A stretch of DNA of 64,000 nucleotides from Sphingomonas immobilis. GTDB lineage: Bacteria > Pseudomonadota > Alphaproteobacteria > Sphingomonadales > Sphingomonadaceae. The translations under genes and the position numbers were made by a program. Numbering within the stretch: position 1 is the first letter of the stretch; the number at the start of each line of letters is the position of its first letter. Below are positions 21,125 to 63,565 of this stretch, piece by piece. The DNA is taken from assembly GCF_030580995.1 (NCBI RefSeq), contig NZ_JAUQSZ010000003.1:62001-126000 (forward strand), read 5' to 3'. The notes beneath the pieces are model-generated. The model had not been told where the DNA came from, made no database searches, and was given only the letters and a program-made list of their open reading frames with translations.

Positions 21125-21126
21125 GC

Positions 21127-23043: not shown

Positions 23044-23309
23044 TGGGGTCTCGTCAGGACGGCAAAGCACGACGGTAGAGCAAGCGCCTGTCCTGCACCA
23101 GCCACCCTTCTGACGACCCGTAGCATGGAGGGCTGGACCGTTTATCCCGCCTACGAATTCAGGCGCACAAATCGCTTCGGCCCAACGCTGTGCTTCCAGG
23201 CCCGCTTACGCCACCGCGCCTCACTGCTGCACCCTTTGCGAACGCAGCCGGCTGAGACCGACGCACGTAACCTTCCAAATGACGACATCAAGGAGTGACC
23301 AATTGGTGA

Positions 23310-44264: not shown

Positions 44265-45298
44265 TTCTTGTCCCCTGCCGCGAGATGGCGATCGAAGAAG
44301 CCCGCGATCAGGCGGAATGCCTCCATCGATTCGGGCATGTCCGGCCACATGAAGAAAGCGTGCGGCAGGCCGTCGAAGAGATAGAGTTCCGACGGCACGC
44401 CGGCCGCCGCAAGACGGCGATGCGCCAGCGTCAGCGCGCTGGCGGCGAAATCACGGCTGCCGGCCAGCAGCAGCGTCGGCGGCATGGCGCGCGTCGCATC
44501 GTCGGAAAGCAGCGCATAGGCCCGCGCGTCGGTCAGCGGAACGCCGGTGAGATAGGGGCTGACCGGCGGCGTCGTCACCGGCGCGGCGCCGGTTAACGGG
44601 CCGGACAGGAGCAGGCTGTCGCCGGTATAAGGCGCGCCGGTGCTGCAGAAGGTGCCGATCGCGCCGGGGCGCGGCAGCCCCTCGCCCTGTAGCGACGCGG
44701 TGGTCTGCGCGACCAGTGCGCCGCCCGCCGAACAGCCGTAGAGGCCGATGGCCTCCGCCCGGTAGGTCTTGAGAAGGACTCGGTAGACCGAACTCATGTC
44801 CTGCGATGCGGCGGGGAAATGGTGGTCTGGCGCGAGGCGGTAGTCGATCGTCACCACGCGCACCCGCATCACCGCCGCGATCGGGATCGCCTCGACCAGC
44901 GCGCCGCTGCCCGCGCCCCACAGGAACGCGCCGCCATGCGCGTTGATCAGAACACGGCCGCGATTGGCCGGACTGATGCCCTCGGCCGGCTCGACCACGT
45001 CGACACCGACCCCGCCGATCGTCTCGTGATGAACGATCGTCTTGAAGCGGCGTTGCATCTCGCCGAGGCGATCGTCGTTAAAACGCTGGTAGAAAGCGCG
45101 CTGCTTGGGGATGTTGCCGGCAATGTCGGCAGGCGCGGCCGCCGCGTCCATACGTTTGAGGATCGCGACCGCTTCCGGGCTCAACTGGTTCGACGGAGGC
45201 AGAGAGAAACCCGGCACTGCCACCTGCGCGCTGGTGGCCGAAAACGCCACGCACGACGCGGCGACAGCGAGCATCATTCTTAGCCGCGCACCGATCAC
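44261..45298 (-). CDS. Secreted alpha/beta-hydrolase (HSL-type esterase)
   Basis: 345 residues from GTG 45298, with GGAGGGGA six bases upstream. A signal peptide ends near SATSAQ. HSL-family motifs follow: oxyanion HGGAFLWGAG, nucleophile elbow GCSAGGALVAQ, LLAGSRDFAA (Asp) and FDGLPHAFFMW (His). It would remove ester-linked acyl groups in the periplasm. It is first in the operon with the MFS and trehalase genes. A LacI-type palindrome (45363-45376) lies 65 bases upstream of the start. Confidence 0.85.
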   Translation of the reverse strand: MIGARLRMMLAVAASCVAFSATSAQVAVPGFSLPPSNQLSPEAVAILKRMDAAAAPADIAGNIPKQRAFYQRFNDDRLGEMQRRFKTIVHHETIGGVGVDVVEPAEGISPANRGRVLINAHGGAFLWGAGSGALVEAIPIAAVMRVRVVTIDYRLAPDHHFPAASQDMSSVYRVLLKTYRAEAIGLYGCSAGGALVAQTTASLQGEGLPRPGAIGTFCSTGAPYTGDSLLLSGPLTGAAPVTTPPVSPYLTGVPLTDARAYALLSDDATRAMPPTLLLAGSRDFAASALTLAHRRLAAAGVPSELYLFDGLPHAFFMWPDMPESMEAFRLIAGFFDRHLAAGDKK

Positions 45299-45362
45299 CG
45301 ACAGTCCCCTCCACCTGGCGGGAGTAAATGCTCCTCGCGTTCCGTGATCGAGTAGGTCGCCA

Positions 45363-45376
45363 TGAAAAGGTTTTCA
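45363..45376 (-). promoter_or_regulatory. Candidate LacI operator 1 (esterase operon)
   Basis: TGAAAAGGTTTTCA, two 6-bp half-sites around GG. On the minus strand it lies next to TTGAAA and upstream of the esterase start. The same pattern (TGAAAW-GG-WTTTCA) occurs at 46493-46506 before the TonB receptor. The form is typical for LacI-family operators. Confidence 0.6.
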
Positions 45377-45388
45377 AGAAAAAGCTGA

Positions 45389-46426
45389 TCACGTCTCGCG
45401 GATCACCATCTCGGTAGGAAGCAGGGTAGATCGCGCCCGCGCACCGTCGAGCTGCTGCATCAGTTTCTCTACGAGCAGCGCACCCGCGACGTCGGTCTTT
45501 TGGTTGATCGTGGTAAGCGCCGGCGTGAAGTGCGCCGCCGGAGGTATGTCGTTGTAACCAACCAGAGAATAGTCGCGCGGAGCGGTCAGGCCGTGCTCGC
45601 GAAATGCGCCCACTGCAGCCATCGCCGCCGTGTCGGAGAAGGCGAAAACCGCGTCGGGGCGGGCTCCACTGACGAGATAGGAGGATACCGTCTGCGCGGT
45701 GGCGGTGAACGCCATCGATACGATCGGCAGGAAATCGACAGTGATGCCCTCGGCCGGGTCGGCCTCTTGGCAGAGCCCCTCGTAGCGCAGGCGCAGCTCC
45801 TCGTGGCGGATATCGCCGAGAAACAGCCAGCGCCTGCGAGCTCGTTCGCGGAAATATCTGCCGGCCAGCCGGCCGCCGCGAATATTGTCACTTCCCACCG
45901 CGCAATAGCCCGCATCCTTGCCCACCGCCCCCCATACCACCATCGGCACGTTGCGTTGGGCCATCGTCCGCAACATCGCGTCGCGCGTCCCCTGCCCGAG
46001 AATGATAAAGCCGTCGGCACCACGCGCACGGTAGAAATCTTCGAAAGCGCGCGCGTCGTCGAGGCCCGGCGGGGACAGCAGCAGCTCTTGGTCGCGGATT
46101 GAAAGCGCCTCGGAAACACCTGCAAGCAGCTCAAAAATAAAGGGATCGCCGATCGCCCCGTGTCTGTGTGAAGCGAAATCGAGCATCACCGCGACAGTTC
46201 CGGTCCGTGCCTGACGCAGTTTCTGCGCATTGCGATTGACGACGTACCCCTGTTCGCGCGCGACATCGAGGACACGCGCGCGCGTCTCTTCGGTAACGAG
46301 CGGACTGTCGTTGAGAACGCGCGACACCGTAGGCATCGATACATTCGCGAGCCGCGCAATGTCCTGCATCGTCGGGCGAGAAGCGCGTGCGCCGCGCTCC
46401 GGCGTTTTCGACAGATCATCGCTCAT
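45389..46426 (-). CDS. LacI-family transcriptional regulator
   Basis: 345 residues from ATG 46426. N-terminal HTH (TMQDIARLANVSMPTVSRVL, hinge helix with NDSPLVTEETRARVLDVARE), then a periplasmic-binding-like effector domain with GFIILGQGTRDAMLR, GSDNIRGGRLAGRYF and YSLVGYNDIPPAAHFTPALT. It would repress until an effector sugar binds. It lies between the two arms of the locus and divergent from the TonB receptor; both arms have matching palindromes, so it is the likely local repressor. The effector is unknown, perhaps trehalose or a derivative. Confidence 0.88.
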   Translation of the reverse strand: MSDDLSKTPERGARASRPTMQDIARLANVSMPTVSRVLNDSPLVTEETRARVLDVAREQGYVVNRNAQKLRQARTGTVAVMLDFASHRHGAIGDPFIFELLAGVSEALSIRDQELLLSPPGLDDARAFEDFYRARGADGFIILGQGTRDAMLRTMAQRNVPMVVWGAVGKDAGYCAVGSDNIRGGRLAGRYFRERARRRWLFLGDIRHEELRLRYEGLCQEADPAEGITVDFLPIVSMAFTATAQTVSSYLVSGARPDAVFAFSDTAAMAAVGAFREHGLTAPRDYSLVGYNDIPPAAHFTPALTTINQKTDVAGALLVEKLMQQLDGARARSTLLPTEMVIRET

Positions 46427-46492
46427 GAGAAAGACCGTAAGCGAGCCCGCGGTAGTGTGGCAAGCCTGCAACAGCGCATTTGACGATACTCT

Positions 46493-46506
46493 TGAAATGG
46501 ATTTCA
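46493..46506 (+). promoter_or_regulatory. Candidate LacI operator 2 (TonB receptor/sulfatase arm)
   Basis: TGAAATGGATTTCA, in the 142-base gap between the divergent LacI and TonB-receptor genes. A TTGACG box lies just 5' (46480-46485), so a bound repressor would cover the promoter. Same pattern as at 45363-45376. Confidence 0.6.
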
Positions 46507-46568
46507 TTACGATTTAGCTAGCGACCCACCAAGGCAATCATGCCGGTTTATTCGCAAGGGGAGGATTT

Positions 46569-49022
46569 ATGATCCGCACCGCTATCTATTTGCTCAGCGC
46601 CGCACCGCTCGCGCTTTCCGCCCAAATCGCCCACGCCCAGTCGGAGCCCGTCTCGACACCTGACACCGCAGCGCCCGCTGCGGACGAACCGGTGCAGAGC
46701 GACATCATCGTGGTCGGCACCGCCGGCGGCGGCACGCGCCGTCAGGATGCCGCCTTCGCCGTCACCACGCTTAGCAGCGATGCGATCACCCGCGCCGCGC
46801 CGACCAGCACGGCCGACATCCTCCGCACTGTTCCCGGCGTCATGGCCGAAAGCTCGGGCGGCCAGAACGGCGCGAATATCTTCGTGCGCGGCTATCCTGC
46901 CGGCGGCGATGCGCAATTCGTGACCTTCCAGATCGCCGGCGTGCCGATCTTTCCACCCTCGACGCTGTCGTTCCTAGAGAACTCGCAACTCATCCGCCTC
47001 GACGAGACGGTCGAGCGCGTTGAGGCCGTGCGCGGCGGCACGGGCTCGCTGTTCTCGGCGGGGCAGCCCGGGCTCACCGTCAACGTCGTGCCGCGCATCG
47101 GCGGCAAGACGCTGAAGGGCTTTGCGAAATTCTCGATCACCGATTACGGCGACAAGCGCGGCGACGCTTGGATTTCCGGTCCGCTGAACCAGGACACCAC
47201 CTTCATGGTCGGCGGCTATTACGCGCAGGGCCACGGCATCCGTAACCCCGGCTTTGACGCAGAAAAGGGCGGTCAGATCACCGCCAACATCCATCATGAT
47301 TTCGACGGGCGCGGCTCGCTCGAAGTCTATGGTCGTTACCTCAACGATCACGGTCAGTGGCTGCTGACGATGCCGGTCGTGCAGAACGGAACGCAGATCA
47401 GCCAGTATCCGGGCTTCTCCGGCAACAGCAACAGCCTGATCGGCCCGGAGACGCAGGTCGTCACCAACGCCGCGGGCCGCCGTATCGACATCTCGGACGG
47501 TCGCGGCGCGAAGATTTTCAACGCCGGCATCACCTTCGATTATGAAGTCGCCGACGGGCTGCGCGTGCGTGAACGTACCGCCTATCTCGGCGGCACGGCC
47601 AACACCAACGGCCTCGTGCCGGTTGCGGCACCGACCACGGCGGCGGCGATGGCGGTTACGCTCGGCGGTGCGGGCTCGACGGTCGGTTCGCTCAACTATG
47701 CCAACGGCGGCGGCGCGGTTTCGACCGGCGCCAGCACGCAGGTGCTGCAGGCCGGCGCGTGGAACGTCCAGAAAAAGATCACCTCGTTCGTCACCGACTC
47801 GGCACTCGAGTGGAAGACCGGCGGCAACACGCTGACGGGCGGCTTCTATTACGCGAACTACACGACTCATGATAATTGGGCGCTCGGCAACAACGTCCTG
47901 CTGACGGCGACGCCCAACGCGCGCCTACTCAGCCTGACGCTCGGCGATGGCCGCGTCGCCTCCAGCACGACCGGCACCAGCGGCGGCCAGGGCTTCCTCG
48001 TGGACGGCAGCTACACCGGCAACGACTACGCCTTCTACGCGGTCGACGAGCTCCAGATCACGCCGGAACTGCGGGTCGATGGCGGCATCCGCTGGCAGCG
48101 CCATGAGGTGACGGGCCAGGTTCGCACGCCGGGCGGCACCGTCAACGTCGATGGCAACGCCAACACGCTGTACGACAACGTCTCCAACGTCCTCGGAACG
48201 ACGCCGCAGGTCATCAATTACGGTGCGGAAGCCTGGTCGTGGACGGTTGGCGCAAATTACGACTTCTCGCGCAATCTGGGCGTCTTCGCGCGCTACAGCC
48301 GTGGCAACAGCTTCCCGCAGTTCGACAATCTGCGCGGGCTGAGCGACTCGGCCATCGCCGCGCACACCGGCACGGCGGTGACGGCGAAGGTCGATACCTA
48401 TGAAGGCGGGGTGAAATATTCGAGCCCGCTGCTCAACCTGTATCTGACGGTGTTCCACAACAAGTTCGACGGTCTGGCGACGACGCAGATCGTCACGCTG
48501 CCGGGCGGCGGGACGGGCGTGGTGTCCTCGATCGGCGGCGCGAAGGCGACCGGCGTCGAGCTCGAAGGCGTGGTGCGGCCGGTGCAGTGGTTCAGCCTGA
48601 CGGCGTCGGGCACGTATCTCGACGGCACCTATCAGGGCTATTTCACCAACAACGGCCTGAACAACAACACCGGCAACATGGTGCAGCGTCAGCCGAAATG
48701 GGCCTGGCGCGTTACCCCGGCGCTCGACGTGAATGTCGGGGGGCTGAAGCCGTCGCTCTACGCGACGGTGCAATATACCGGCGATCGTTTCTCCGATCCT
48801 GAAAACCAGCAGCTCCTGCCGCATTTCTACCAGGTCGATGCGGGTGTGTCGGTGACGATCGCCGATCGCTACACGTTTCAGGTGACGGGCAACAACCTCA
48901 CCAACGAATTCGGTTTAACGGAGGGCAATCCCCGCCAGATCGGCTCGCAGGGCGCAGGCGTGGTGCTGGCGCGTCCGATCCTCGGCCGCTCGTTCCGCTT
49001 CAGCGCGGCGGTGAAGTTTTAA
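46569..49022 (+). CDS. TonB-dependent outer-membrane receptor
   Basis: 817 residues with GGGGAGGATTT upstream. Signal peptide (LLSAAPLALSAQIAHAQS). A TonB-box-like segment (DIIVVGTAGG) precedes the plug (~60-165: FAVTTLSSDAITRAAPTSTA, ILRTVPGVMAES, RVEAVRGGTGSLFSAGQPG). The beta barrel ends in FRFSAAVKF with the C-terminal Phe. It imports a substrate across the outer membrane using TonB energy. It is followed by two sulfatase genes after a hairpin at 49037-49075. Sequence does not separate siderophore from glycan use; context favours a sulfated sugar. Confidence 0.9.
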   Translation: MIRTAIYLLSAAPLALSAQIAHAQSEPVSTPDTAAPAADEPVQSDIIVVGTAGGGTRRQDAAFAVTTLSSDAITRAAPTSTADILRTVPGVMAESSGGQNGANIFVRGYPAGGDAQFVTFQIAGVPIFPPSTLSFLENSQLIRLDETVERVEAVRGGTGSLFSAGQPGLTVNVVPRIGGKTLKGFAKFSITDYGDKRGDAWISGPLNQDTTFMVGGYYAQGHGIRNPGFDAEKGGQITANIHHDFDGRGSLEVYGRYLNDHGQWLLTMPVVQNGTQISQYPGFSGNSNSLIGPETQVVTNAAGRRIDISDGRGAKIFNAGITFDYEVADGLRVRERTAYLGGTANTNGLVPVAAPTTAAAMAVTLGGAGSTVGSLNYANGGGAVSTGASTQVLQAGAWNVQKKITSFVTDSALEWKTGGNTLTGGFYYANYTTHDNWALGNNVLLTATPNARLLSLTLGDGRVASSTTGTSGGQGFLVDGSYTGNDYAFYAVDELQITPELRVDGGIRWQRHEVTGQVRTPGGTVNVDGNANTLYDNVSNVLGTTPQVINYGAEAWSWTVGANYDFSRNLGVFARYSRGNSFPQFDNLRGLSDSAIAAHTGTAVTAKVDTYEGGVKYSSPLLNLYLTVFHNKFDGLATTQIVTLPGGGTGVVSSIGGAKATGVELEGVVRPVQWFSLTASGTYLDGTYQGYFTNNGLNNNTGNMVQRQPKWAWRVTPALDVNVGGLKPSLYATVQYTGDRFSDPENQQLLPHFYQVDAGVSVTIADRYTFQVTGNNLTNEFGLTEGNPRQIGSQGAGVVLARPILGRSFRFSAAVKF

Positions 49023-49036
49023 GGTGCTCCCCGAGT

Positions 49037-49075
49037 GCCCGCTTTCGGTTCCCCTGCCGGAAGCGGGCCATTTTC
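49037..49075 (+). terminator. Intercistronic hairpin between receptor and sulfatase
   Basis: GCCCGCTTTCGG (49037-49048) pairs with CCGGAAGCGGGC (49057-49068, one mismatch region), followed by CATTTTCG. This would act as a partial terminator or mRNA-stability element, giving more receptor than sulfatase message. Confidence 0.5.
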
Positions 49076-49090
49076 GTATAAGGAGTGCGC

Positions 49091-50506
49091 ATGGATCGGC
49101 GTGACGTCCTGAAGGGTATCGCGGGTGTCGCGGCGGTCTCCGCCGCGCCGCTGCGCGCGGTGGCGGCCACACCGCCGAAACGCAACGTCCTGCTGCTGAT
49201 CTCCGACGATCAGGGGCTCGATGCCGGCTGTTACGGATTGGGCATCAAGACGCCGCGCCTCGATCGGCTGGCGCGTGAGGGCACGCGCTTCACCCAGGGC
49301 TACGCCACCGTCTCGTCGTGCAGCCCGAGCCGCGCGTCGATCTATACCGGGCTCTATACGCACCAGAACGGCATGTACGGTCTGGGCCATGACGTGCACC
49401 ACCAGTCGCTGCTGCCGGGCATAGAGACGTTGCCGGCGATGCTGCGCCGGGCAGGCTATGCGACCGCGCTGGCCGGCAAGAAGCACGTCGGGCCTGACGC
49501 CGCCTTCCCGTACGAAGCGGAACTGGTGCCGGAACGCAGCGGCATCCGCGACGTCCACGAACTGTCGGTCGCAGCGGCCAGCTTCATCCGCGCGAGCGAC
49601 GACCGCCCCTTCTTCGTGACGGTCGGCTACAGCGATCCGCACCGTGCGGCAGGCGGCTACGGCAACGGCCCCGCATGGCCGGGCGTGAAACCGGTCATCT
49701 ACGATCCGAAGCGCGTGCCGATTCCATCGCATTTGCCCGATCTGCCGGCTGTGCGGCAGGATCTGGCGGATTATTACCAGTCGATCAGCCGGCTCGACAG
49801 CGGCATCGGCATGTTGCTCGACGATCTCGCCGCGATGGGCCGCGCGGACGATACGCTGGTGATCTTCCTGAGCGACAACGGCCGCCCCTTCCCTGCTGCC
49901 AAGACCAATCTCTACGATCCGGGCCTGCATCTGCCGCTGATCGTTCGCGCGCCGGGCGCGGCCCCTTCCATCAACGATGCGATGGTGAGTTGGGTCGATG
50001 TCGCGCCGACGATCCTCGCGTGGACCGGTGCTGCCGGGCCGAATTACAAACTGTCCGGCCAGTCGCTGCTGCCGCTGCTCGGCAAGGCGGGCGATCCGGC
50101 GCGCGACGCGGTGTTCGCCAGCCACGATTTCCACGAGATCAATCAATATTATCCGATGCGCGCGATCCGCACGCGGACCCACAGCTACATCCTCAACCTC
50201 GCGCATCCGCTCGATTATCCGATCGCGGGGGATGTCGCCGGATCGCCGAGCTGGCAGGCGATCGCCGCCGATCCGGCGATCCTGCTCGGCAAGCGCACGC
50301 AGGCGGCCTATCTGAAGCGTCCGGCCGAGGAACTCTACGACCTGAAGCGCGATCCCGATGAGGTGGTGAACGTGGCGAACGACCCCGCCTATGCCGCCGT
50401 GAAGGCGCAGCTCGCCGAACGCCTGCGGGCAAGCCGCGCGGCCACCAAGGATCCGTGGCTCGCCGGGCAGACCGATCCCTACAGCCATGTGGGCAAGCAC
50501 GAATGA
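49091..50506 (+). CDS. Sulfatase 1 (N-sulfoglucosamine sulfohydrolase-like)
   Basis: 471 residues from ATG 49091 (AAGGAG upstream). A Tat-type signal (DRRDVLKGIAGVAAVSAAP) points to the periplasm. The formylglycine motif is CSPSRASIYTG (CxPxR; Cys converted post-translationally), with metal ligands in LLISDDQGLD and FLSDNGRPFP. The stretch SDNGRPFPAAKTNLYDPGL matches the SGSH-like branch of family S1. It hydrolyses a sulfate ester or sulfamate. A maturase is not in the window. Its stop overlaps the start of sulfatase 2 by 4 bases. Confidence 0.88.
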   Translation: MDRRDVLKGIAGVAAVSAAPLRAVAATPPKRNVLLLISDDQGLDAGCYGLGIKTPRLDRLAREGTRFTQGYATVSSCSPSRASIYTGLYTHQNGMYGLGHDVHHQSLLPGIETLPAMLRRAGYATALAGKKHVGPDAAFPYEAELVPERSGIRDVHELSVAAASFIRASDDRPFFVTVGYSDPHRAAGGYGNGPAWPGVKPVIYDPKRVPIPSHLPDLPAVRQDLADYYQSISRLDSGIGMLLDDLAAMGRADDTLVIFLSDNGRPFPAAKTNLYDPGLHLPLIVRAPGAAPSINDAMVSWVDVAPTILAWTGAAGPNYKLSGQSLLPLLGKAGDPARDAVFASHDFHEINQYYPMRAIRTRTHSYILNLAHPLDYPIAGDVAGSPSWQAIAADPAILLGKRTQAAYLKRPAEELYDLKRDPDEVVNVANDPAYAAVKAQLAERLRASRAATKDPWLAGQTDPYSHVGKHE

Positions 50507-52047
50507 GCGACAGTCCCGATCGCCGCGGCGTCCTTCTGGCCGGCAGCCTCGGCGCATTCGGGCTCTACAGCTGGGCGGCGGGCGCGGAGGCCGCGACACC
50601 GCAATCGCTGACGACACTCAGGCGCAAGCCCGGCTTGAAGCCGAAGAACATCCTGTTCGTCCTCACCGACGATCATCGTTACGACGCGCTCGGCTTCATG
50701 AAGACACAAGGCTTCGGCGACACGCCGACGCTCGACCGGCTGGCGCGCGAGGGCGTGCATTTCCGCAACGCCTTCGTCACCACCGCGCTCTGCTCGCCGA
50801 GCCGCGCGTCGATCTTCACCGGCCTCTACGCGCACCAGCACCGGGTGGTGGACAACAACCATCCGATCCCGCCCGGCCTCGTCTATTATCCGCAATATCT
50901 GCAGCATGCCGGGTACGAGACCGCCTTCATCGGCAAGTGGCACATGGGCATCGAAACCGACGCCCCGCAGCCGGGCTTCGACCGCTGGGTCAGTTTCAAG
51001 GGCCAAGGCCATTATCTGCCGCATGAGGACGGCCTCAACGTCGACGGCCACAAGGTGGCGCAGAAGGGCTATATCACCGACGAGCTGACCGATTATGCGC
51101 TCGACTGGATCGGCAGGCGCGACGGCAAGCGGCCGTGGATGATGCACTTCGCGCACAAGGCGGTGCATGCCGAGTTCATCCCGGCGGAGCGCCACAAGGG
51201 CCGCTACGACAAGGAGACGTTCCGCTATCCCGACAGCATGAAGCCTGGCGTGCCCGGCCGGCCGATGTGGGTGGAGAACCAGCGCAACAGCTGGCACGGC
51301 GTCGATTATCCCTATCACGGCAAGCTCGACATCGGCGATTACTACAAGCGCTACATGGAGACCTTGCTGGCGGTCGACGAAGGCCTGGCCAAGATCATGG
51401 CGTTGCTGGCGCGGCGGGGCGAACTCGACGATACGCTGATCGTCTATATGGGCGACAACGGCTTCATGTTCGGCGAACACGGCCTGATTGATAAGCGGGC
51501 CGCCTACGAAGAATCGATGCGTGTGCCGCTGATCGCGCGCTGCCCGTCGCTGTTCGGGCGCGGTGCGGTGGAGCAGGTCGTCGCTAATATCGACATCGCG
51601 CCGACCATGCTCGCGGCGGCAGGGCTGGAAGCGCCTACGCACATGGCGGGCGCGGACATACTGCCGCTGATCGGCGGACGGGACGTGCCGTGGCGCAAGG
51701 AGCTGCTTTACGAATATTATTGGGAGCGCAATTTCCCGCAAACGCCGACCGTTCACGCGCTGCGCGAGGAGCGCTACAAATATATGCATTTCCACGGCAT
51801 CTGGGATACCGACGAACTTTATGACCTGACCGCCGATCCGCAAGAAAGCGACAATCTGCTCGCTCGTCCTGGTCACGAGGCGATGGCGGAGCGAATGAGC
51901 ACGAAACTGTTCGACCTGCTCGAGAAAACAGGCGGGATGCAAATCCCGCTCAGCGCCGACGCCGGTGAACGCAACGAACTGCGTAATCCAGCAGGATCCT
52001 CGGGTGCTTCTTTCCCCTCACGCTTCTTCCGGCCGCCTTTACGCTAA
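50503..52047 (+). CDS. Sulfatase 2 (iduronate-2-/GlcNAc-6-sulfatase-like)
   Basis: 514 residues from ATG 50503 (ATGA overlap with sulfatase 1). Signal of Tat type (DRRGVLLAGSLGAFGLYSWA). Formylglycine motif CSPSRASIFTG; metal ligands in FVLTDDHRYD and YMGDNGFMFGEHG; substrate-side residues in HFAHKAVHAEF and GKWHMG. It belongs to a different S1 branch than sulfatase 1, so the two probably remove sulfate at different positions. The last ~25 residues are low-complexity (ASFPSRFFRPPL). Confidence 0.88.
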   Translation: MSDSPDRRGVLLAGSLGAFGLYSWAAGAEAATPQSLTTLRRKPGLKPKNILFVLTDDHRYDALGFMKTQGFGDTPTLDRLAREGVHFRNAFVTTALCSPSRASIFTGLYAHQHRVVDNNHPIPPGLVYYPQYLQHAGYETAFIGKWHMGIETDAPQPGFDRWVSFKGQGHYLPHEDGLNVDGHKVAQKGYITDELTDYALDWIGRRDGKRPWMMHFAHKAVHAEFIPAERHKGRYDKETFRYPDSMKPGVPGRPMWVENQRNSWHGVDYPYHGKLDIGDYYKRYMETLLAVDEGLAKIMALLARRGELDDTLIVYMGDNGFMFGEHGLIDKRAAYEESMRVPLIARCPSLFGRGAVEQVVANIDIAPTMLAAAGLEAPTHMAGADILPLIGGRDVPWRKELLYEYYWERNFPQTPTVHALREERYKYMHFHGIWDTDELYDLTADPQESDNLLARPGHEAMAERMSTKLFDLLEKTGGMQIPLSADAGERNELRNPAGSSGASFPSRFFRPPLR

Positions 52048-53679: not shown

Positions 53680-54210
53680 GTGAGCCCACGAGTCGAATCG
53701 CTGACAAAGACACAGGTCGAGTGCCTCAGAGCCAAATGGGATGGCATGACCGACGCTGAAATCGCGAAAATGCGGAATACATCGAGGCGCGTGGTAGAAA
53801 TGCACAACGCCGAATCTCGACGAAAACTGCGCACTAACACTACTGAAAGCGCAGCAAAAATAGCCGCTCGAGAATTGGGGTGGCCACCTTCGGATCGACC
53901 TTCGGATCGCAAATCCGAACTATCTCAAACTTCGATTTTCCCGCCAGCCATCTCCCACGGCCTGGAGCAGGCCACGGAGACTTCCGCGTTACGGGACATC
54001 GGTTGGAACTACGATCCGCCGCCGGCACGCATTTCGCCGTGGCCTCTCCGATCAAGGGGAGCACGCCGCAATGACCTGAGTATCTCGACACGCAATCTCT
54101 GGATCATCGCTATCGCGATCGGGATGCCAGCGGTTTTGGTGCTCTGCATGATGATGGGCGACTATCTGGGTCGGCTCGTCGCCGGCATTTCCCACTTCCT
54201 CGGCCCTTGA
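53680..54210 (+). CDS. LuxR-type HTH regulator with C-terminal membrane helix
   Basis: 176 residues from GTG 53680. The N-terminal HTH (SLTKTQVECLRAKWDGMTDA, EIAKMRNTSRRVVEMHNAES) is the LuxR/GerE C-terminal type used alone. A Pro/Ser-rich linker follows, then one membrane helix (LWIIAIAIGMPAVLVLCMMM) near the end. It would be a membrane-tethered DNA-binding protein. The signal and target are unknown, but it heads a run of five downstream genes that include a RadC-like protein. Confidence 0.65.
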   Translation: MSPRVESLTKTQVECLRAKWDGMTDAEIAKMRNTSRRVVEMHNAESRRKLRTNTTESAAKIAARELGWPPSDRPSDRKSELSQTSIFPPAISHGLEQATETSALRDIGWNYDPPPARISPWPLRSRGARRNDLSISTRNLWIIAIAIGMPAVLVLCMMMGDYLGRLVAGISHFLGP

Positions 54211-54253
54211 TCGCTTCATTTGCCGAAATTCATTCGGCTCAGGGGGTATCATC

Positions 54254-54604
54254 ATGCTGAACCATCGTCTCGCTGCGGCCCGTAAGGTCGCTGCGCATCT
54301 CATGCCGGCTGAAGCCGACCTCGAAAGCTCCATCGTTCGGAATGCACGTCTACAGATCGCGATCGTCGAAGCGCGTCAGGAAGCCAAGGCCCCGAAGAAC
54401 CTTGGTGCAGCCGCTCTTGTGCACCTTGCCGACGCCGGCCAAGCCCTGGCAGCGGCCTGGACCTCCATGACGAGCGCCCATTCCGCGCTGCACGAAGATC
54501 AACGACTGGCCGGTCTCAGCACCTTCGCCTTTGGCGATGTTGACGAGACGCCGACCAAAACGACCGGCATTCACGCCGAACCAGTCCTGCGCGAAGTCGC
54601 CTGA
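54254..54604 (+). CDS. Hypothetical protein, 116 aa
   Basis: Helical and soluble: HRLAAARKVAAHLMPAEADL, VRNARLQIAIVEARQEAKAP, VHLADAGQALAAAWTSMTSA, and an acidic end. CAGGGGGTATCATC precedes the start. It follows the LuxR-TM gene by 43 bases and may be co-transcribed. Not recognised; sphingomonads often carry a similar short protein after this regulator. Confidence 0.6.
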   Translation: MLNHRLAAARKVAAHLMPAEADLESSIVRNARLQIAIVEARQEAKAPKNLGAAALVHLADAGQALAAAWTSMTSAHSALHEDQRLAGLSTFAFGDVDETPTKTTGIHAEPVLREVA

Positions 54605-54647
54605 CGCCGCATTGACGGGATAGAGCAAGTGCGGTCTTCATATCTGC

Positions 54648-55094
54648 GTGTGGCATATAGGCGCCTTTCTGATCTGGTTGACCATGTGCTGCGGACTCGC
54701 CGCTTTGGTGGGTGGGGCGGCCGAGCGGCGAGCGGCGGCGTTGCTGGTTCTGGCATACGTCGCATCCTTCATCGCGGCCCGGATACGCGCCCACTCTCAA
54801 TACACGGCAGTGTATTACGACGCCTGGATCATCGACCTGCTCCTCCTGATCGCTCTCTACGTTCTGGCGATACGATCGACCCGGTTCTGGCCGATGTGGC
54901 TGGTCGCGATACATGTGCTAGCGGTGATCGCGCACCTGCTTCGGGTCATCGACCCCCTGATGATGTTCGAGGGCTATTACGGGATCATCAATCTTGCGGG
55001 ATGGCCGATGGCGGGGATTGTCGGGATCGCAGCATTTCGGCATCGCTATCGGGTCCGGCGCTTCGGCAGCGATCCGTCCTTCGCGACCTTCTGA
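54648..55094 (+). CDS. Hypothetical membrane protein, ~148 aa
   Basis: From GTG 54648. About five hydrophobic segments: IGAFLIWLTMCCGLAALVG, AALLVLAYVASFIAARI, IIDLLLLIALYVLAI, PMWLVAIHVLAVIAHLL, and MAGIVGIAAF. Not recognised. Its 3' end overlaps the RadC-like gene in another frame by about 90 bases. Confidence 0.6.
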   Translation: MWHIGAFLIWLTMCCGLAALVGGAAERRAAALLVLAYVASFIAARIRAHSQYTAVYYDAWIIDLLLLIALYVLAIRSTRFWPMWLVAIHVLAVIAHLLRVIDPLMMFEGYYGIINLAGWPMAGIVGIAAFRHRYRVRRFGSDPSFATF

Positions 55095-55660
55095 GTTGTG
55101 CCAGACCGGGTAATGCAGACGTCTGGGCGGAACGGCTGCTCAACGAATACGGCACGCTCTACGCCGTCATACGGGGACCGGCTCGTCGCACCCTTCCGTT
55201 TTTGAACGGATGTTACGATGCCCTCGACCTGCTGCAGACGATGCATGCCTGCCATCTGGAGATGCTCCGGGGAGAGGTGGAAGAACGGGAGCCTCTCACC
55301 GGGGAAGACGCGGTTCAGTATCTGACGGCTGCAATTGGTCACGAGGAAACCGAGGTCGTCTGGGCGCTCTTCCTGGACCACCGATACCGGCTGATCAAAA
55401 GCGAGGCGCTGTTCCGGGGCGGCTTTGACAGCTGTAACATTGAAGTCGGCATGATCATGCGTCGCGCGCTGGAACTCGAGGCGCGTGCTCTGCTCCTCGC
55501 GCACAATCATCCCAGCGGTGACTGCACGCCAAGCCACGCGGACAAGATTCTCACCTCTCAAATCGCCAGGGCCGGGAAGGACCTTTCCGTAACGTTGGTA
55601 GATCATCTGATCATATCTGCGGAATCGTTCACGAGCTTCCGCAGAGAATTGCTGCTGTGA
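55001..55660 (+). CDS. RadC-like JAB/MPN (JAMM) domain protein
   Basis: 219 residues if started at ATG 55001; a later start is possible. The N-terminal part resembles the helical region before RadC domains (LRDLLSCARPGNADVWAERL). The JAMM metal site is complete: HNHPSGDCTPSHAD (HxHPSGxxxPSxxD), with the family's Glu region RRALELEARALLLAHNH. RadC proteins are named for repair but their biochemical role is unsettled. Many copies lie on mobile islands, and the neighbourhood here (small proteins, IS remnants) fits that. Confidence 0.8.
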   Translation: MADGGDCRDRSISASLSGPALRQRSVLRDLLSCARPGNADVWAERLLNEYGTLYAVIRGPARRTLPFLNGCYDALDLLQTMHACHLEMLRGEVEEREPLTGEDAVQYLTAAIGHEETEVVWALFLDHRYRLIKSEALFRGGFDSCNIEVGMIMRRALELEARALLLAHNHPSGDCTPSHADKILTSQIARAGKDLSVTLVDHLIISAESFTSFRRELLL

Positions 55661-57061: not shown

Positions 57062-57950
<889 letters not shown>

Positions 57951-58007: not shown

Positions 58008-59231
58008 TTATGGTGTATCGGTGAGCCACTGGCTATCGAGACGGACGATTTGCGCCATCTGCATCTGGGCGTTTGTGGCGAGGTCAACAGGGCCGTTTAC
58101 CGTCACGCTGCGGCCTCCACCAAATGGCCCGCCGAGCGGCAGCAGCGCATAAGCCGTCGAATCTGCGATCATTGGCCTCAAGATATAGGGCCCGGGCGCC
58201 AAGGGCAGACGGTCAATCTTGCACCGTACAGTGGAGCGACCTGGAGCAAGCTGGCGACCGGCGAAGTCGAAAACTGAGGAGACGCAAGTCATGCCGTCTG
58301 GCGTCCAGAGCGAGAAGCCGGGGAAAATGCCAACAACGTCGGGCATTTGCATTTGGATTTCCATTTCCAAGGTAATGGTAGATCCAGTTTCGGCATGACT
58401 CTGCGCGACTTCCCCGAAGCCGAGTGCGAGGATCGCCACTGTGGCGCCGTCGTCGGGCGCGAACGGCGTTTCATGCCGCTCTGTTTCCGCAAGATAGGCA
58501 CGGACGATCGCCTGCGTCTCACCCTCAGCAGTGACGCGACCATGGTCGAGCAAGATGCCGCGTTGGCACACCGCATGAACATGCGCGATCGCGTGCGACA
58601 CTAAGAGCAAACCACCACCGCGCGCCAGAAATTCCTTCATGTACGTCAGACACTTGCGTTGAAACGCCACGTCTCCAACCGCGAGCACTTCATCGACGAG
58701 CAACACGTCGGCTTCCAGCAGAGCGGCAATACCGAACGCTAAGCGCGCCCGCATACCCGTGCTGAAGGTCTGAAGAACTGTATCGGCACTGTCCTCCAGT
58801 CCGGCGAAGGCAAGCACGTCGGGAACCATTGCGGCGGCGCGTTTGCGATTGATGCCGTGGAGCTGCGCCGCCAGTCGGATGTTTTCACACGCAGTGAGCA
58901 ATGGGTTGAGACCAGCGCCAAGCTCAATGAGCGCGACCACCCGGCCGCGTATTACAACCCGGCCGCGGTCCAGGGGTAATAAGCCGGCCAACACCTTCAG
59001 CAGAGTCGACTTTCCCGCACCGTTGCTTCCGAGCACCGCCACAGCCTCGCCGGCGTGCAGCTGTAGGGACACGTCATCGAGCGCCCAGAATTCGCCCCTG
59101 CGTAACCGCATCAAGCGCTGCGTGGGCAAAAATTCGGCGAGAATGTCGAGCGCGCCGTATAACAGCGAGCGGCGCACACCGGGGCAGAACCTCTTACTGG
59201 CGCCATCGACCTGAAGGAGCGGCTTGGTCAT
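58008..59231 (-). CDS. ABC transporter ATPase with Wzt-like C-terminal domain
   Basis: 407 residues from ATG 59231 (TAATG overlap with the permease stop). Walker A GSNGAGKSTLLKV, signature FSTGMRARLAFGI, Walker B ADVLLVDEVLAVGD and the H-loop LVSHAIAHV. The C-terminal ~150 residues are a Wzt-type beta domain (TITLEMEIQMQMPDVVGIFP, SLWTPDGMTCVSS, YILRPMIADSTAYALLPLGG), which binds the terminal structure of the exported glycan in O-antigen systems. It powers export with the permease at 59231-60055. Confidence 0.88.
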   Translation of the reverse strand: MTKPLLQVDGASKRFCPGVRRSLLYGALDILAEFLPTQRLMRLRRGEFWALDDVSLQLHAGEAVAVLGSNGAGKSTLLKVLAGLLPLDRGRVVIRGRVVALIELGAGLNPLLTACENIRLAAQLHGINRKRAAAMVPDVLAFAGLEDSADTVLQTFSTGMRARLAFGIAALLEADVLLVDEVLAVGDVAFQRKCLTYMKEFLARGGGLLLVSHAIAHVHAVCQRGILLDHGRVTAEGETQAIVRAYLAETERHETPFAPDDGATVAILALGFGEVAQSHAETGSTITLEMEIQMQMPDVVGIFPGFSLWTPDGMTCVSSVFDFAGRQLAPGRSTVRCKIDRLPLAPGPYILRPMIADSTAYALLPLGGPFGGGRSVTVNGPVDLATNAQMQMAQIVRLDSQWLTDTP

Positions 59232-60055
59232 TACCCTAGCCGCGCGACGATATGCGGTCGCGCAAGGCGGTAGATGAACCAAGCTACCAGCAGCAGCGCG
59301 GCAGCAAGCGCGGCTGTGGCCGCAAAGCCGTTTGACACTGATAAACGCACCAACAGATTACGCGGCGTGTCCAGCAAAGGTATGAGCGGGTTGAACCGCT
59401 GCACGCCGCTCGCGGTAATTGGATAAGCGACCGGCATCGCGAACACGAGCAGGTTTGTCACCAGTAACAGGCCTCGCGCGCCATCCTCGTATAGAAGCGT
59501 AATCGGCGCAAATAGAAGACCGACCGCCAGCCCCAACATTGCCACAGGAACCGCAGCAAAAGGTGCGAACAGCGTCGTCGTGCCCAATGGCACTCGCAGG
59601 AAAATGCAAAGTATCAGTAACGAGCCAAGCCGCACGGCTGCGTTGAGGAACGCCTCATATACACCCGCCAAGATCATAGCCTCGTGTGGTACACGTAATC
59701 TCGTGACCGTGCCGCGATGTGCGATCAATTGTCGCGTGGGGGCGTTCAGCGTTTCTAACAACAACTGCCATAAGGTCGTACCGGCAAAAACAAACACCGC
59801 AACCGGCATGCCGATATCTGGAAAGTGGAAAATTCCGCGCGCCTGAACATAGCTGATTGCGGTCACCGCCATGATCGCCGGAATAAAAAGCCAAAGATGC
59901 CCGAGCAGGGCGCGACGGCTCTGGGTCTGCAAGCCCGCTTGGAACAGCGTAAACCCGAGCGACAGACTCTGATGGAGATCGGTTGCCGCCTCATGCACAA
60001 AGCGCCGCCCGTTGCGGAGCTGCGGGCCGGCTTCGTAGATGATCTGTTTCTTCAT
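59231..60055 (-). CDS. ABC-2 type polysaccharide exporter permease (Wzm-like)
   Basis: 274 residues from ATG 60055. Six hydrophobic segments (e.g. ALLGHLWLFIPAIMAVTAIS, VAVFVFAGTTLWQLLLETL, LLILCIFLRVPLGTTTLFA, LLLVTNLLVFAMPVAYPI), typical of ABC-2 permeases for capsule, O-antigen or lipid-linked glycan. The start ATG lies 4 bases after the UbiA stop. Confidence 0.85.
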   Translation of the reverse strand: MKKQIIYEAGPQLRNGRRFVHEAATDLHQSLSLGFTLFQAGLQTQSRRALLGHLWLFIPAIMAVTAISYVQARGIFHFPDIGMPVAVFVFAGTTLWQLLLETLNAPTRQLIAHRGTVTRLRVPHEAMILAGVYEAFLNAAVRLGSLLILCIFLRVPLGTTTLFAPFAAVPVAMLGLAVGLLFAPITLLYEDGARGLLLVTNLLVFAMPVAYPITASGVQRFNPLIPLLDTPRNLLVRLSVSNGFAATAALAAALLLVAWFIYRLARPHIVARLG

Positions 60056-60059
60056 GACT

Positions 60060-61124
60060 TCATCGTTTCCCTTGCCGCCGGTCTGGTCCTCGTAATGCAA
60101 AGGACAAGCCCCTAGCTCGCAGTATGGCGAGGAAGAGTGTCGCCTCGCTTAGCAAAATCGGGGCGAACAGGATCAGATGTGTTAACAGGACGGCCGCATC
60201 CTGCGGATGGCGCGAGGTAGCCGCCAGCAAAAGTGAGAGCGGCAGTAACGTGACGTAGTAATCAGCCAACAGCGTCACACATTGTGACCGCGGCTCTACG
60301 AGGGTGATCGACCACTGCCGTGCCTGCAGTTTGATGATCGTCGCGGTGCTGTAGGCGGCGAGCCCCAGCGCCGGGATTTTTCCCGGCAGCAATGCAAGCA
60401 GCGCGAACAGCGTGATTAGCTCCAGCGGGAAGAACAGCCGTTCGCCGCAACGCCTCGCCTTATTCTCGCCGACGCGTTGAACAAAGGTTTGGCTACCGCT
60501 GCGGCGGTCCGCATCCGCATCGCGTAGCTGATGACCGAGAATTGAGCGCAACCCTGTCCCAAGCGCCCAGACGGCGAGAACGCCTGTCCAAAACGGCCAC
60601 GGCGCAACACCCGCCGCGCGAAACGCGACCAGCGCGGCGGTAAGGCTTGGGAATAGGTGCGCTCCACACGCATCCGCCATAAGCCCGGCAAATCCGCACT
60701 CTTTGAGGCGCAGCGGCGACAGCGAATAGGCGGTGAACGAGAGCCAAGCGGCGACGTAGACGAGAACAAGAGCCGGATCGTCCCGCCAATGATATGCAAA
60801 AGCCACGCCTGACGCGACGAGTGCCACTATGAGCACCATCGAGAGCGCGATGCGGCGTGGGCGTCCAGCCAACCGGTTTGGCTTTCCTGCCGCGCGATCT
60901 TCGCGAATGTCAGCCAGGTCGTTGATGATGCTGACGTAGGTGGCGCCAACCACCAATGCGGCCAATAACACGAGCCCCTCACGCCAGGCCGGGACGATCG
61001 GTCTACCAGTCAAGATGAAGGGCGCGTAGAACGCGGCGAGTAACGTTGGCATCTTGGACGACCACCAGTCGCTCGCCCGTGCTATCGAGCCGACATCGCT
61101 AAAACGCTTTCCCAGCCCCTTCAT
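60060..61124 (-). CDS. UbiA-family prenyltransferase
   Basis: 354 residues, about nine membrane helices. First Asp-rich motif NDLADIREDRAAGKPN (NDxxDxxxD) after helix 2; second motif GHQLRDADADRRSGSQTF after helix 6. UbiA enzymes join a prenyl diphosphate to an aromatic or sugar-phosphate acceptor in the membrane. Here it is followed at once by ABC exporter genes, unlike ubiquinone or heme pathway members. Its acceptor is unknown. Confidence 0.88.
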   Translation of the reverse strand: MKGLGKRFSDVGSIARASDWWSSKMPTLLAAFYAPFILTGRPIVPAWREGLVLLAALVVGATYVSIINDLADIREDRAAGKPNRLAGRPRRIALSMVLIVALVASGVAFAYHWRDDPALVLVYVAAWLSFTAYSLSPLRLKECGFAGLMADACGAHLFPSLTAALVAFRAAGVAPWPFWTGVLAVWALGTGLRSILGHQLRDADADRRSGSQTFVQRVGENKARRCGERLFFPLELITLFALLALLPGKIPALGLAAYSTATIIKLQARQWSITLVEPRSQCVTLLADYYVTLLPLSLLLAATSRHPQDAAVLLTHLILFAPILLSEATLFLAILRARGLSFALRGPDRRQGKR

Positions 61125-61223
61125 CGTTCGGCCCTCACCCTCTCATGTTGCCGCTACAAGTTCCGCCGGAGGCAGGCTACAGGATTGCGTTAGATGCTGA
61201 TATTCGAGGAGGTTGGACCGAAG

Positions 61224-62300
61224 ATGGCCGGGGGTTCAAAGGCGCAGCGGGACGTCGATGGCGAACAGGTCAACGCCGCCATCGACCGCGGCCTTGCCTA
61301 TCTCGCCGAGCATCAATATCCCAATGGCGAATTCTGCTGCTATATCGCGATCGATGAGCCGATGCAGGGCTGGTGCGTTACCGACAGCACGGTCTTTGCG
61401 ACAATGGTCGTCGCCTCATGCCTGGTATCGACAGAGGCCCATCCCGCAAGCGAGCACATGCTGCGCAAGGCGACAATATACATGCAGTCGCAGCAACACC
61501 ATGGACCGACATGGCCGGTATTCTCCGATCGCCACCGCTGGCACGCGGCAGTTCCGTACGATTCGGATAGTCTCGCCTATGCCTCAGCCTTTCTGCAGGC
61601 TCGCGGCATCGTATATCCTGCGCTGAACATCCCGTTGCTGCTCGCGAACCGCAACCGCCAGGGTCTTTTCTTAACCTGGTTCCTGTTGCGACCCGTCTGG
61701 CCAAGGAATCGGACGCATTTGCGCGTCACTGCCAAGCGACTGCTGCACCCGTTGCGCAATATACTGTTCTGGCGGGCCAATGAGTGTGATCCCGATGACG
61801 TCGACATGGGGATCAACGCCAACATCCTATATTATCTCGGCGAGCGACCGGAAACGCTTCCGATCGTGACTGCCTTACTGCGTGTCATTGTGGAGGGGCG
61901 CGAGGACGATTGCGACAAATGGTACCGCAACAGGTTCAGCATCTATTATCTCATCGCTCGAGCATATTCGAAGGGAGCGCACGGCCTTGCTCCGGCGCGG
62001 GATCTGATCGTCGAACGCATCCTCGCGACCGCGCAACGCGATGGCAGCTTCGGTACCTCGATCCTCGATACGGCGTTTGCAGTCTCAACATTGCTGTTAC
62101 TCGACGCCCCGACAGCGCAGGTCCATCAAGCGGTGGCAGCGTTACTAGATCAGCAGACCCAGGCGGGAAATTGGGTGCGCTGGCTATTCTATTACGGCGG
62201 CCCGCAGCGCTCGCAAGGATGGGGGTCGGAAGAGTTGACCACCGGCTTCTGTCTCGAAGCTGTGGCGCTTTACCGAGCGAAATTTGGAATCTCAGTCTAG
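61224..62300 (+). CDS. Prenyltransferase/squalene-cyclase-repeat-like protein
   Basis: 358 residues; ATG 61224 is preferred (GAGGAGG upstream), 61194 possible. An (alpha/alpha)-barrel layout: VNAAIDRGLAYLAEHQYPNG, VTDSTVFATMVVASCLVS, WPVFSDRHRWHA, DMGINANILYYLGERPETLP, and the QW-like repeat QRDGSFGTSILDTAFAVSTL. The cyclase DxDD or QW catalytic sets are not complete, so it may be a single-barrel relative of class II terpene cyclases. It is divergent from UbiA and ends convergent with the GT4 gene (4-base overlap on CTAG). This pairing suggests an isoprenoid product. Confidence 0.65.
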   Translation: MAGGSKAQRDVDGEQVNAAIDRGLAYLAEHQYPNGEFCCYIAIDEPMQGWCVTDSTVFATMVVASCLVSTEAHPASEHMLRKATIYMQSQQHHGPTWPVFSDRHRWHAAVPYDSDSLAYASAFLQARGIVYPALNIPLLLANRNRQGLFLTWFLLRPVWPRNRTHLRVTAKRLLHPLRNILFWRANECDPDDVDMGINANILYYLGERPETLPIVTALLRVIVEGREDDCDKWYRNRFSIYYLIARAYSKGAHGLAPARDLIVERILATAQRDGSFGTSILDTAFAVSTLLLLDAPTAQVHQAVAALLDQQTQAGNWVRWLFYYGGPQRSQGWGSEELTTGFCLEAVALYRAKFGISV

Positions 62301-63565
62301 GCCGATTGATCCGCCGGGGCGAGCGTTCGTTCGGCCGCTCGCTCAAAAGCGTGGCCGACAGGTAGTCCGGTATCCGAACTCGGAGCGCGGTTATGCGCCC
62401 CTTGCCGTGCCGCTAAGATCGATAATTCGGCAGCGAGAGTCGCAGACGGGTCAGAAGGAATCTGCGTGCGGATGGAGCGACCGGCCGCTTCGCCGATGGC
62501 TTGCCAATCGTCGCGAGAAGCCCATGCTTCCTCAAGAATGGCGTCGATCTCGAATTCGCTATGTCCAGCGGCAACGAACCCAGTTCTGCCATGCTCGATC
62601 ACTTCAGCGCCTCCCCCAGCGGGCGTGATGACCGCGACACGCCCGCTCAGCATTGTCTCTACCACCGCGAGCGGCAGCCCCTCGCAGCGTGAGCACAGCA
62701 CCAAGCCGTGATGATCGTCCCAAACTCTCTCAGGTGTAGCGATAAATCCCGGGAAATCGGCCCGTTCGACGTCAAGATACCGCGCCATCTCGCGCAACCC
62801 TTCTGCGTCGGGCCCCGCCCCATAGAAGCTGACACGGAGCGGACGTTCACGCCATTTCGGCTGCGCCAACACGCGAAGTAGCGCCGCTTGTCCTTTCTCC
62901 ACAGTGTCCAGCCGGGCGACGCAAGCGAGACGAAAGCCGTTGCCAGTATCAGGCCAGTCGTCGCGCTTGGCCCACGGAACGAGGAAAGGGTTCGCCACCA
63001 CGCGAGCATTGGGCAGACTGCCTGCAATCTGTTCCTCGGTAAGGCGCAGATTGTGATTGGAGACGAAAAGACTTTCGACCGCGCCGCGGTGCGCATCCAT
63101 GAAAGCTCTGCGAATTTCATCCCTTGGCCAATGCATATCATCTGCTTTCTGGCTGATAAGCACATAGGAAAGACCGACCTGCCGACAACGCTCGGCCCAT
63201 TGCCAACCCTCGTAGTTCAGGCCTTGCGAGATTATCACCAGATCGGGTCGGGCAGAACGAAATAGATGGTCGATCTTCGCTGCCTGCGTCATTCGCGTAA
63301 ACGGTGTGCAGGCGTCGATAAGATGCCTGATCTTGAACGGAATCATGCCCGTGTTGCGCAGATCGAAATGGCGAACGCCGCGCTTTTCGAGTCGATCAAG
63401 GGGCGTGATATTGGGGCGGGGAGTCTGAGAGCCCGTGACGACCCGATGACCGGCGTCGGCGAGAGCGAGGGCCGTGCGGCTCCATAACTCTTCGCTGCCA
63501 CCCCACAGCTTGTTGGTGCTTAAAAATGCAAAGCTAAACTCGGCTGCGGAGCGAACGCCCGTCAT
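62297..63565 (-). CDS. Glycosyltransferase family 4 protein
   Basis: 422 residues from ATG 63565 (AAGGGAAGGGG upstream). GT-B fold: FAFLSTNKLWGGSEELWSR at the N-terminus, central RLACVARLDTVEKGQAALLR and LRVSFYGAGPDAEGLREMAR, and the C-terminal donor-site stretch CSRCEGLPLAVVETMLSGRV with GGGAEVIEHGRTG (the E-x7-E pattern of GT4). It transfers a sugar from a nucleotide-sugar donor, probably onto the lipid-linked product of this locus. It converges with the cyclase-like gene. Confidence 0.88.
   Translation of the reverse strand: MTGVRSAAEFSFAFLSTNKLWGGSEELWSRTALALADAGHRVVTGSQTPRPNITPLDRLEKRGVRHFDLRNTGMIPFKIRHLIDACTPFTRMTQAAKIDHLFRSARPDLVIISQGLNYEGWQWAERCRQVGLSYVLISQKADDMHWPRDEIRRAFMDAHRGAVESLFVSNHNLRLTEEQIAGSLPNARVVANPFLVPWAKRDDWPDTGNGFRLACVARLDTVEKGQAALLRVLAQPKWRERPLRVSFYGAGPDAEGLREMARYLDVERADFPGFIATPERVWDDHHGLVLCSRCEGLPLAVVETMLSGRVAVITPAGGGAEVIEHGRTGFVAAGHSEFEIDAILEEAWASRDDWQAIGEAAGRSIRTQIPSDPSATLAAELSILAARQGAHNRAPSSDTGLPVGHAFERAAERTLAPADQSA

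Follow-up and report, generated by a model that had tools for sequence, protein, structure and literature searches.

A UbiA-family prenyltransferase, a class II terpene cyclase-like barrel and a Wzm/Wzt-type exporter in one gene cluster of Sphingomonas immobilis

MstE from the merosterol pathway of Scytonema cyclises a prenyl chain that is already attached to its acceptor (PMC9401909; this and the other papers cited were used as excerpts). A barrel protein of the same single-domain fold (Z 30.2 against MstE) is encoded at positions 58008-63565 of the window, by which we mean the whole 64,000-nucleotide (nt) stretch of Sphingomonas immobilis DNA analysed here, together with a UbiA-family prenyltransferase, an ATP-binding cassette (ABC) exporter of the Wzm/Wzt kind and a family 4 glycosyltransferase (GT4). 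MstE differs in that its substrate is a prenylated dihydroxybenzoate, it is 16% identical to the window barrel, and the excerpt of PMC9401909 describes no exporter or surface-glycan context for it. By profile and by fold the closest proteins to the barrel are AsDMS and AstC of the drimenol family, which have a DxDT-type motif; both differ from the window protein in having a HAD phosphatase domain, and AsDMS converts farnesyl diphosphate to drimenol (PMC9128629).

Polyprenyl-linked chemistry beside an ABC-dependent O-antigen pathway is described for three-component pentofuranose systems, whose synthase uses phosphoribosyl pyrophosphate and has MATE and GT-C partners (PMC11127046). The cluster reported here has a cyclase homologue instead, and a UbiA protein of another kind. 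Wzm/Wzt O-antigen exporters consist of a homologous permease and ATPase, with a Wzt_C-kind tail that is weak in the window copy. Known Wzm/Wzt systems export polysaccharide on an undecaprenyl lipid; the exporter in the window, in contrast, is linked to prenylation and terpene cyclase-like genes. Each kind of part is known, and neither the combination nor the barrel family was found described in the open-access literature: among the papers listed, titles and beginnings of abstracts yielded no combination of UbiA, class II cyclase and O-antigen-type exporter. Judged from homology and a modelled fold, we file the cluster as candidate meroterpenoid-type biosynthesis coupled to polysaccharide-type export, and on balance we expect it to make and export a prenylated, probably ring-closed (terpenoid) glycoconjugate. 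This would suggest a function for a conserved barrel family whose window member falls under the Pfam and NCBIfam cut-offs, and would tie terpene cyclisation to polysaccharide-type export.

Five open reading frames (ORFs) are intact in this part of the window:

58008..59231, minus strand: Wzt-type ABC ATPase with C-terminal tail (ORF could reach 59282)
59231..60055, minus strand: Wzm-type ABC-2 permease (ORF could reach 60100)
60060..61124, minus strand: UbiA-family prenyltransferase, both Asp-rich motifs intact
61194..62300, plus strand: single-domain class II terpene cyclase-like barrel, motif PYDSDS (alternative start 61224)
62297..63565, minus strand: GT4 glycosyltransferase, convergent with the barrel gene (ORF could reach 63622)

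The Wzt, Wzm and UbiA genes form a tight minus-strand operon, in which 4 nt separate the UbiA stop from the Wzm ATG, and 1 nt is common to the Wzm stop and the Wzt start. The barrel gene is divergent from this operon, with 70 or 100 bases between its start and that of UbiA, and at its other end shares 4 nt with the convergent GT4 gene. Starts at 63565 for GT4 and at 59231 for Wzt are likely. A preliminary description of this DNA, made from its letters and a list of its ORFs, had already read in it a UbiA enzyme with an NDxxDxxxD motif abutting or overlapping ABC genes, an ABC-2 permease with a Wzt-type ATPase, a divergent (alpha/alpha)-barrel protein and a convergent GT4; family and structure matches given below bear out each of these.

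The barrel protein has 368 amino acids (aa) and contains QRDGSFG, the QxDGSFG-type repeat noticed earlier; in a single-sequence scan it matches no Pfam or NCBIfam family above cut-off. Its AlphaFold2 model (pLDDT 91.8, pTM 0.91) is an alpha/alpha barrel of the squalene-cyclase fold. A family profile of 22 rows, searched against PDB sequences, finds drimenol synthase best (9mhs, E 8.6e-20), then squalene-hopene cyclase (1gsz, E 3.6e-10), AstC (22ty, E 2e-9) and ent-copalyl diphosphate synthase (3pya, E 1.2e-5), with a weak match to MstE (E 0.0024). Foldseek also ranks drimenol synthase first (E 1.6e-13): its rows 1-31 hold drimenol and drimenyl diphosphate synthases, squalene-hopene cyclases, MstE, human oxidosqualene cyclase and Actinoplanes 6ij1 (named a prenylcyclase), and the first non-cyclase, complement C4b, appears in row 32. 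With VIA-align the model superposes on drimenol synthase at Z 34.6 (306 residues, 2.6 A), on 6ij1 at 30.6 and on squalene-hopene cyclase at 29.4, MstE lying between the latter two, and the first enzymes of another kind are cellobiose epimerases at Z 21.9. The comparison with terpene cyclases that had been proposed thus puts class II cyclases on top, and the barrel is almost certainly homologous to them. A sugar-epimerase identity was considered and rejected, the epimerase Z being well under those of the cyclases.

The DxD stretch of the barrel aligns with DLDTT of drimenol synthase, and D125, which forms the window's Asp pair with D123, corresponds to its D333. The first and middle Asp of the DxDD-type motif are kept in all 36 barrels compared (from 36 loci; the motif of L141 was read by eye, the partial L065 was included, and L139, L010 and L025 were left out). 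The residue that follows the pair is D in 23 of them, N in nine and S in four; strict DxDD is absent from the window barrel, which reads DSDS, and the Ser also occurs in L047, L055 and L061. The middle Asp is critical in the DxDTT of drimenol synthase (PMC9128629) and is the acid in the DxDT of AstC (PMC13244436), so that a residue other than Asp after the pair is compatible with activity. The idea that DSDS marks a dead copy was dropped, given that the Ser recurs in these three loci and that DxDT enzymes are active. As far as motif and model can tell, the window barrel is probably an active cyclase. It has no N-terminal HAD phosphatase domain, being a single-domain protein, and a Pfam scan of the five genes found no HAD family. 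A single TC-beta domain adjoining a prenyltransferase gene is the monodomain arrangement of MstE; the mst cluster contains a UbiA-type gene too.

The window UbiA matches PF01040 (E 5.3e-15; 55.8 bits against a cut-off of 34.2) and carries NDLADIRED as its NDxxDxxxD motif and DADAD as the second; the residues of these Asp-rich motifs are invariant across 11 aligned relatives. As a single sequence it matches no solved structure. The profile of its clade finds chlorophyll a synthase best in the PDB (E 7.7e-7), followed by digeranylgeranylglyceryl phosphate synthase (0.0017), with no other structures at E 0.01. Chlorophyll synthase prenylates a carboxylate, and digeranylgeranylglyceryl phosphate synthase a hydroxyl. 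When four related UbiA proteins were scanned (those of L052, L030, L037 and Nostoc L022), the families found were those of prenyltransferases, among them chlorophyll synthase and homogentisate phytyltransferase, and no DPPR synthase family came up at E 0.001. The host genome (4.13 Mb) holds three further UbiA-family genes.

The polyprenyl phosphoribose synthase of three-component systems belongs to the UbiA superfamily as well, and the window UbiA might instead be a polyprenyl-phosphate phosphoribosyltransferase that supplies pentofuranose to an O antigen. Such a synthase is indeed employed by ABC-transporter-dependent O-antigen loci (PMC11127046). A DPPR-like paralogue from Pedobacter, however, matches DPPR synthase 8j8j (E 1.2e-9) where the window UbiA matches no structure and the profile of its clade finds chlorophyll synthase; the similarity of the window UbiA to the DPPR family is weak (15.8 bits, E 0.0052, cut-off 207), and it does not affiliate with PRK12324 or 8j8j. 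In a tree of 95 rows, a branch with support 98/93 splits the UbiA clade from the distant UbiA rows and from two DPPR-like paralogues, which come from two Pedobacter loci and match DPPR families; L113 and those controls with enough sequence fall among the distant rows. The bootstrap of this tree has not settled, its branches are long, and its root is distorted by the mis-picked rows L111 and L112, which were ignored. Moreover, the five genes are all assigned to families other than GT-C, MATE or phosphatase. Altogether a phosphoribosyl role of the window UbiA is highly improbable.

The Pedobacter loci in question (L056:12443-15657 and L045:11431-14581) carry the DPPR-kind protein as a second UbiA, beside an FAD protein and a HAD-like gene recognised by eye; one surface-glycan locus may here combine two distinct kinds of UbiA chemistry.

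Regarding the exporter, the Wzm protein matches no ABC-2 family in the Pfam scan and reaches NCBIfam NF050109 at E 4.7e-7, far under the cut-off of that family. A 9-row profile nevertheless matches the Wzm structures 6oih (E 9.5e-24) and 6m96, both at E about 1e-23. Wzt matches ABC_tran (E 3.5e-21), and an 8-row profile matches the full-length Wzt structure 8dku at E 7.6e-90. Its C-terminal domain scores 21.4 bits in the window copy, under the cut-off of 30.4, and exceeds the cut-off in two of the five relatives scanned (L041 and L062); the tail alone gave no Wzt match in a single-sequence PDB search. Tails of known Wzt proteins recognise the modified end of the glycan (PMC11127046). The GT4 matches PF13692 (E 2.4e-18) and PF00534 (E 9.2e-14), and together GT4 and exporter suggest that the product is a glycoconjugate.

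UbiA and barrel genes remain together across genomes. Using the barrel as bait, 7 of 295 genomes match in the host genus and 3 of 298 in a sample of the host family, the latter including the window genome and one weak squalene-cyclase-like match (G322, judged by eye to be an ordinary squalene-cyclase region and rejected). All eight host-family genomes with a true barrel (G000, G043, G084, G232, G233, G270, G276 and G464) have a UbiA gene in the barrel neighbourhood; a weak UbiA match was also seen in G060. The family of Pedobacter sp. V48 (G593, L044) gave barrel matches in 10 of 251 genomes, seven of them strong, and around each of these seven (L139 included) UbiA, GT4 and an ABC ORF roughly 600 residues long lie within 19 kb. 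In the phylum of Stenomitos (G600, L062) there were 7 matches in 244 genomes, five of them weak (E 1.8e-10 or worse); the full-length match is a cyanobacterial PhyH–UbiA–barrel fusion of 1510 residues. Plasmid pC052_D of Nostoc sp. C052 likewise encodes PhyH, UbiA, barrel, coiled coil and TPR in one protein of 1218 residues. A plasmid search added Novosphingobium sp. RL4, where UbiA and barrel occur together with (by eye) sulfotransferase, Wzt, Wzm and GT4 genes between or beside them.

Loci with both genes occur in Alphaproteobacteria, Acidobacteriota, Bacteroidota and Cyanobacteriota, and the two genes are divergent in the window, on the same strand in L052 and L026, on opposite strands in L041 and L061, and fused in cyanobacteria. 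As gene order and strand vary, the linkage is not merely one inherited gene order. UbiA and barrel very probably act in one pathway. Two further loci have a UbiA and no barrel: Oscillatoria encodes a UbiA–PhyH fusion, and a Methylomagnum plasmid has UbiA with a polyprenyl synthetase (3.5 kb away), an ABC permease and ATPase, PhyH and a sulfotransferase. The Methylomagnum locus (L023:1-28451) also contains split transketolase/DXS-like genes, radical SAM and asparagine-synthase genes.

For a survey with UbiA as bait, a single-sequence scan with the window protein found no relative among 164 stretches of genome contigs, and an 11-row UbiA profile was used, the best 80 of at least 142 relatives being taken as loci. 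By profile score these were split into 44 close loci (L030–L073) and 36 distant controls (L074–L109); L030 is the same locus as L010, and L139 lies on the same contig as L047. Thresholds (in bits) were 40 for the barrel, 55 for Wzm with 150 for Wzt, 400 for MsbA-like ABC proteins, 200 for GT4, 100 for sulfotransferase, 100 for P450 and 75 for PhyH. Among the close loci, 23 have a barrel (including the weak L069, 82 bits with motif DIDC, and L070, 46 bits, both outside the motif count above), 31 an exporter (13 Wzm plus Wzt, 18 MsbA-like) and 33 a GT4 of the same family, whereas sulfotransferase (8), P450 (5) and PhyH (7) are less frequent. L033 has a Wzm with too low a Wzt score and was counted as having no exporter. 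At the same thresholds the distant loci show none of these features (0/36), a Wzt-like match of 85 bits in L081 staying below threshold. The earlier suggestion that UbiA proteins rarely lie next to such exporters is therefore right for distant loci and wrong for closer relatives, and the neighbourhood survey it had called for shows that these mostly keep the context. Neither outcome that had been named as refuting the preliminary reading of the locus (UbiA homologues mostly elsewhere, or a barrel of a known unrelated family) was found, since close UbiA relatives mostly stay in context and the barrel groups with terpene cyclases.

From these counts, UbiA, GT4 and exporter make up the core of the system, to which a cyclase is often added. 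A barrel of at least 40 bits is lacking in the examined stretch of 21 of the 44 close loci, and in 18 of the 19 whole genomes (of unstated completeness) searched from those 21 there is no barrel anywhere, which makes the cyclase accessory. A core with an optional cyclase fits linear and ring-closed versions of one product class. The same absence speaks for another explanation, in which UbiA alone would make an unusual linear-prenyl anchor or carrier for an exported glycan, the barrel being non-catalytic or acting on sugar; L042, L044 and L050, which keep UbiA, GT4, a GT2-like gene and an ABC protein, agree with this, as does the fold shared with sugar epimerases. Profile and best folds of the barrel, in contrast, are those of class II cyclases, and its Asp pair is kept throughout the barrels compared, so we regard this explanation as very unlikely.

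Relatives of the cluster carry further genes that bear on the kind of product, namely P450, an acyltransferase–P450 fusion, an AprA-like methyltransferase, PhyH and sulfotransferase. Such tailoring genes are typical of natural-product clusters, and the product might be a soluble, small glycosylated meroterpenoid with the ABC proteins acting as an exporter of the drug type and without involvement of a surface polymer. Fungal meroterpenoid pathways, too, generally have a cyclase act after UbiA (PMC10882540). What speaks against such a product is that the exporter resembles Wzm/Wzt and has a tail weakly similar to Wzt_C, and that Bacteroidota loci contain a sugar-type aminotransferase and, by eye, several glycosyltransferases; L052, for instance, has an aminotransferase of the dTDP-sugar kind and, by eye, a sugar-ketoisomerase-like cupin, a methyltransferase and GT2 genes. 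We consider the small soluble product unlikely, and the glycosylation of the product and its export by this ABC system reasonably probable.

Two of the tailoring proteins deserve mention on their own account. The Acyl_transf_1–P450 fusion is found at L010:5168-7360, L041:6805-9066 and L026:10447-13230, in Alphaproteobacteria and Bacteroidota; no acyl carrier protein or ketosynthase was noticed beside it, and no search was aimed at them. An 894-aa protein at L010:1604-4288, just upstream of Wzm, contains an AprA MT2-like methyltransferase domain (PF23525, E 3.2e-75).

The results above concern the genes present, their homologies and linkage, the conserved motif, the predicted fold and the fusions; from them we infer a pathway with its chemical steps, their order, substrate and product. 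The inner-membrane UbiA would first take a prenyl diphosphate supplied by primary metabolism and transfer its prenyl group to an acceptor, presumably at a hydroxyl or carboxyl group. The barrel would then protonate the end of the prenyl chain through Asp125 and cyclise the chain, as MstE does after prenylation. GT4 would add a sugar, and Wzm/Wzt (in Bacteroidota an MsbA-like ABC protein instead) would export the product, which in relatives could be decorated by sulfotransferase, P450, PhyH and methyltransferase. Alternatively the prenyl diphosphate might be cyclised first, as in drimenyl diphosphate synthases. Prenylation before cyclisation is the moderately favoured order, because the barrel is single-domain and lacks HAD, like MstE acting on a prenylated acceptor. 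The MstE pathway prenylates and then cyclises (PMC9401909), and in fungal meroterpenoid pathways the cyclase also follows UbiA (PMC10882540). The preliminary description had proposed an exported glycan linked to an isoprenoid or aromatic group. Its isoprenoid part is supported and made specific by the class II cyclase homologue and a UbiA profile matching chlorophyll synthase and digeranylgeranylglyceryl phosphate synthase. That the product is a glycan and not a small glycosylated terpenoid, and that the acceptor is aromatic, are still conjecture; no gene for an aromatic precursor was recognised in the loci read, in which no dedicated search for one was made.

Several observations weigh against a conserved terpenoid glycoconjugate pathway. 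Comparing close with distant loci, Fisher P values are 3e-8 for the barrel, 4e-12 for the exporter, 3e-13 for GT4 and 0.06 for P450, values that are too small given the relatedness of the loci, which also inflates the counts. The bit thresholds were chosen after the scores were seen, and the 36 controls are mostly cyanobacterial and archaeal, so that they differ in taxonomy as well. Besides the missing barrels, 13 of the 44 close loci have no exporter at the thresholds used (six of them on stretches ended by contig ends). G062 has a UbiA near a contig end and is absent from the barrel matches of the genus, and a cyanobacterial barrel fragment with a stop (G997, L144) has neither UbiA nor neighbours of the system. 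In the window cluster itself the Asp pair is followed by Ser, the locus showed no prenyl synthase, and the sulfotransferase, P450 and PhyH of some relatives are lacking. Given the missing tailoring genes and an adjoining IS3-type transposase ORF (57062-57667, integrase core, just downstream of Wzt), it might be argued that the window cluster is a remnant.

In a wider, tentative version of the proposed pathway, surface glycans or glycolipids of several phyla would have a prenyl group, which an unannotated monodomain cyclase would close into a ring while it is attached to the glycoconjugate, and the Wzt tail would recognise the terpenoid- or sulfate-bearing end before export. If so, the cyanobacterial fusions with coiled coil and TPR would serve as a scaffold or ruler. 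Since loci with barrel and UbiA occur in the four phyla or classes named, they may make envelope components or metabolites that are common and have so far been overlooked.

The surroundings of the cluster show some further features. Beside the transposase ORF lies an ORF (57683-57949) without a Pfam match, and four proteins had no match in a viral family library. Within about 5 kb of the cluster (window 53680-55660) there are a LuxR-type regulator, a short ORF and a RadC gene. This set recurs at L024:418-2435 (G232) with BLASTP identities of 32-48%, and both clusters possibly lie at one and the same hot spot for insertions. Two sulfatases, a LacI regulator and a major facilitator superfamily transporter at 43035-52047, beside a large ORF that by eye resembles a TonB-dependent receptor, probably serve the use of a sulfated compound. 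Chemotaxis genes, recognised by eye, occupy 12548-23070 (with a CheA-type protein at 15857-17791), in a stretch whose GC content rises to 65-70%, compared with about 60% around the cluster.

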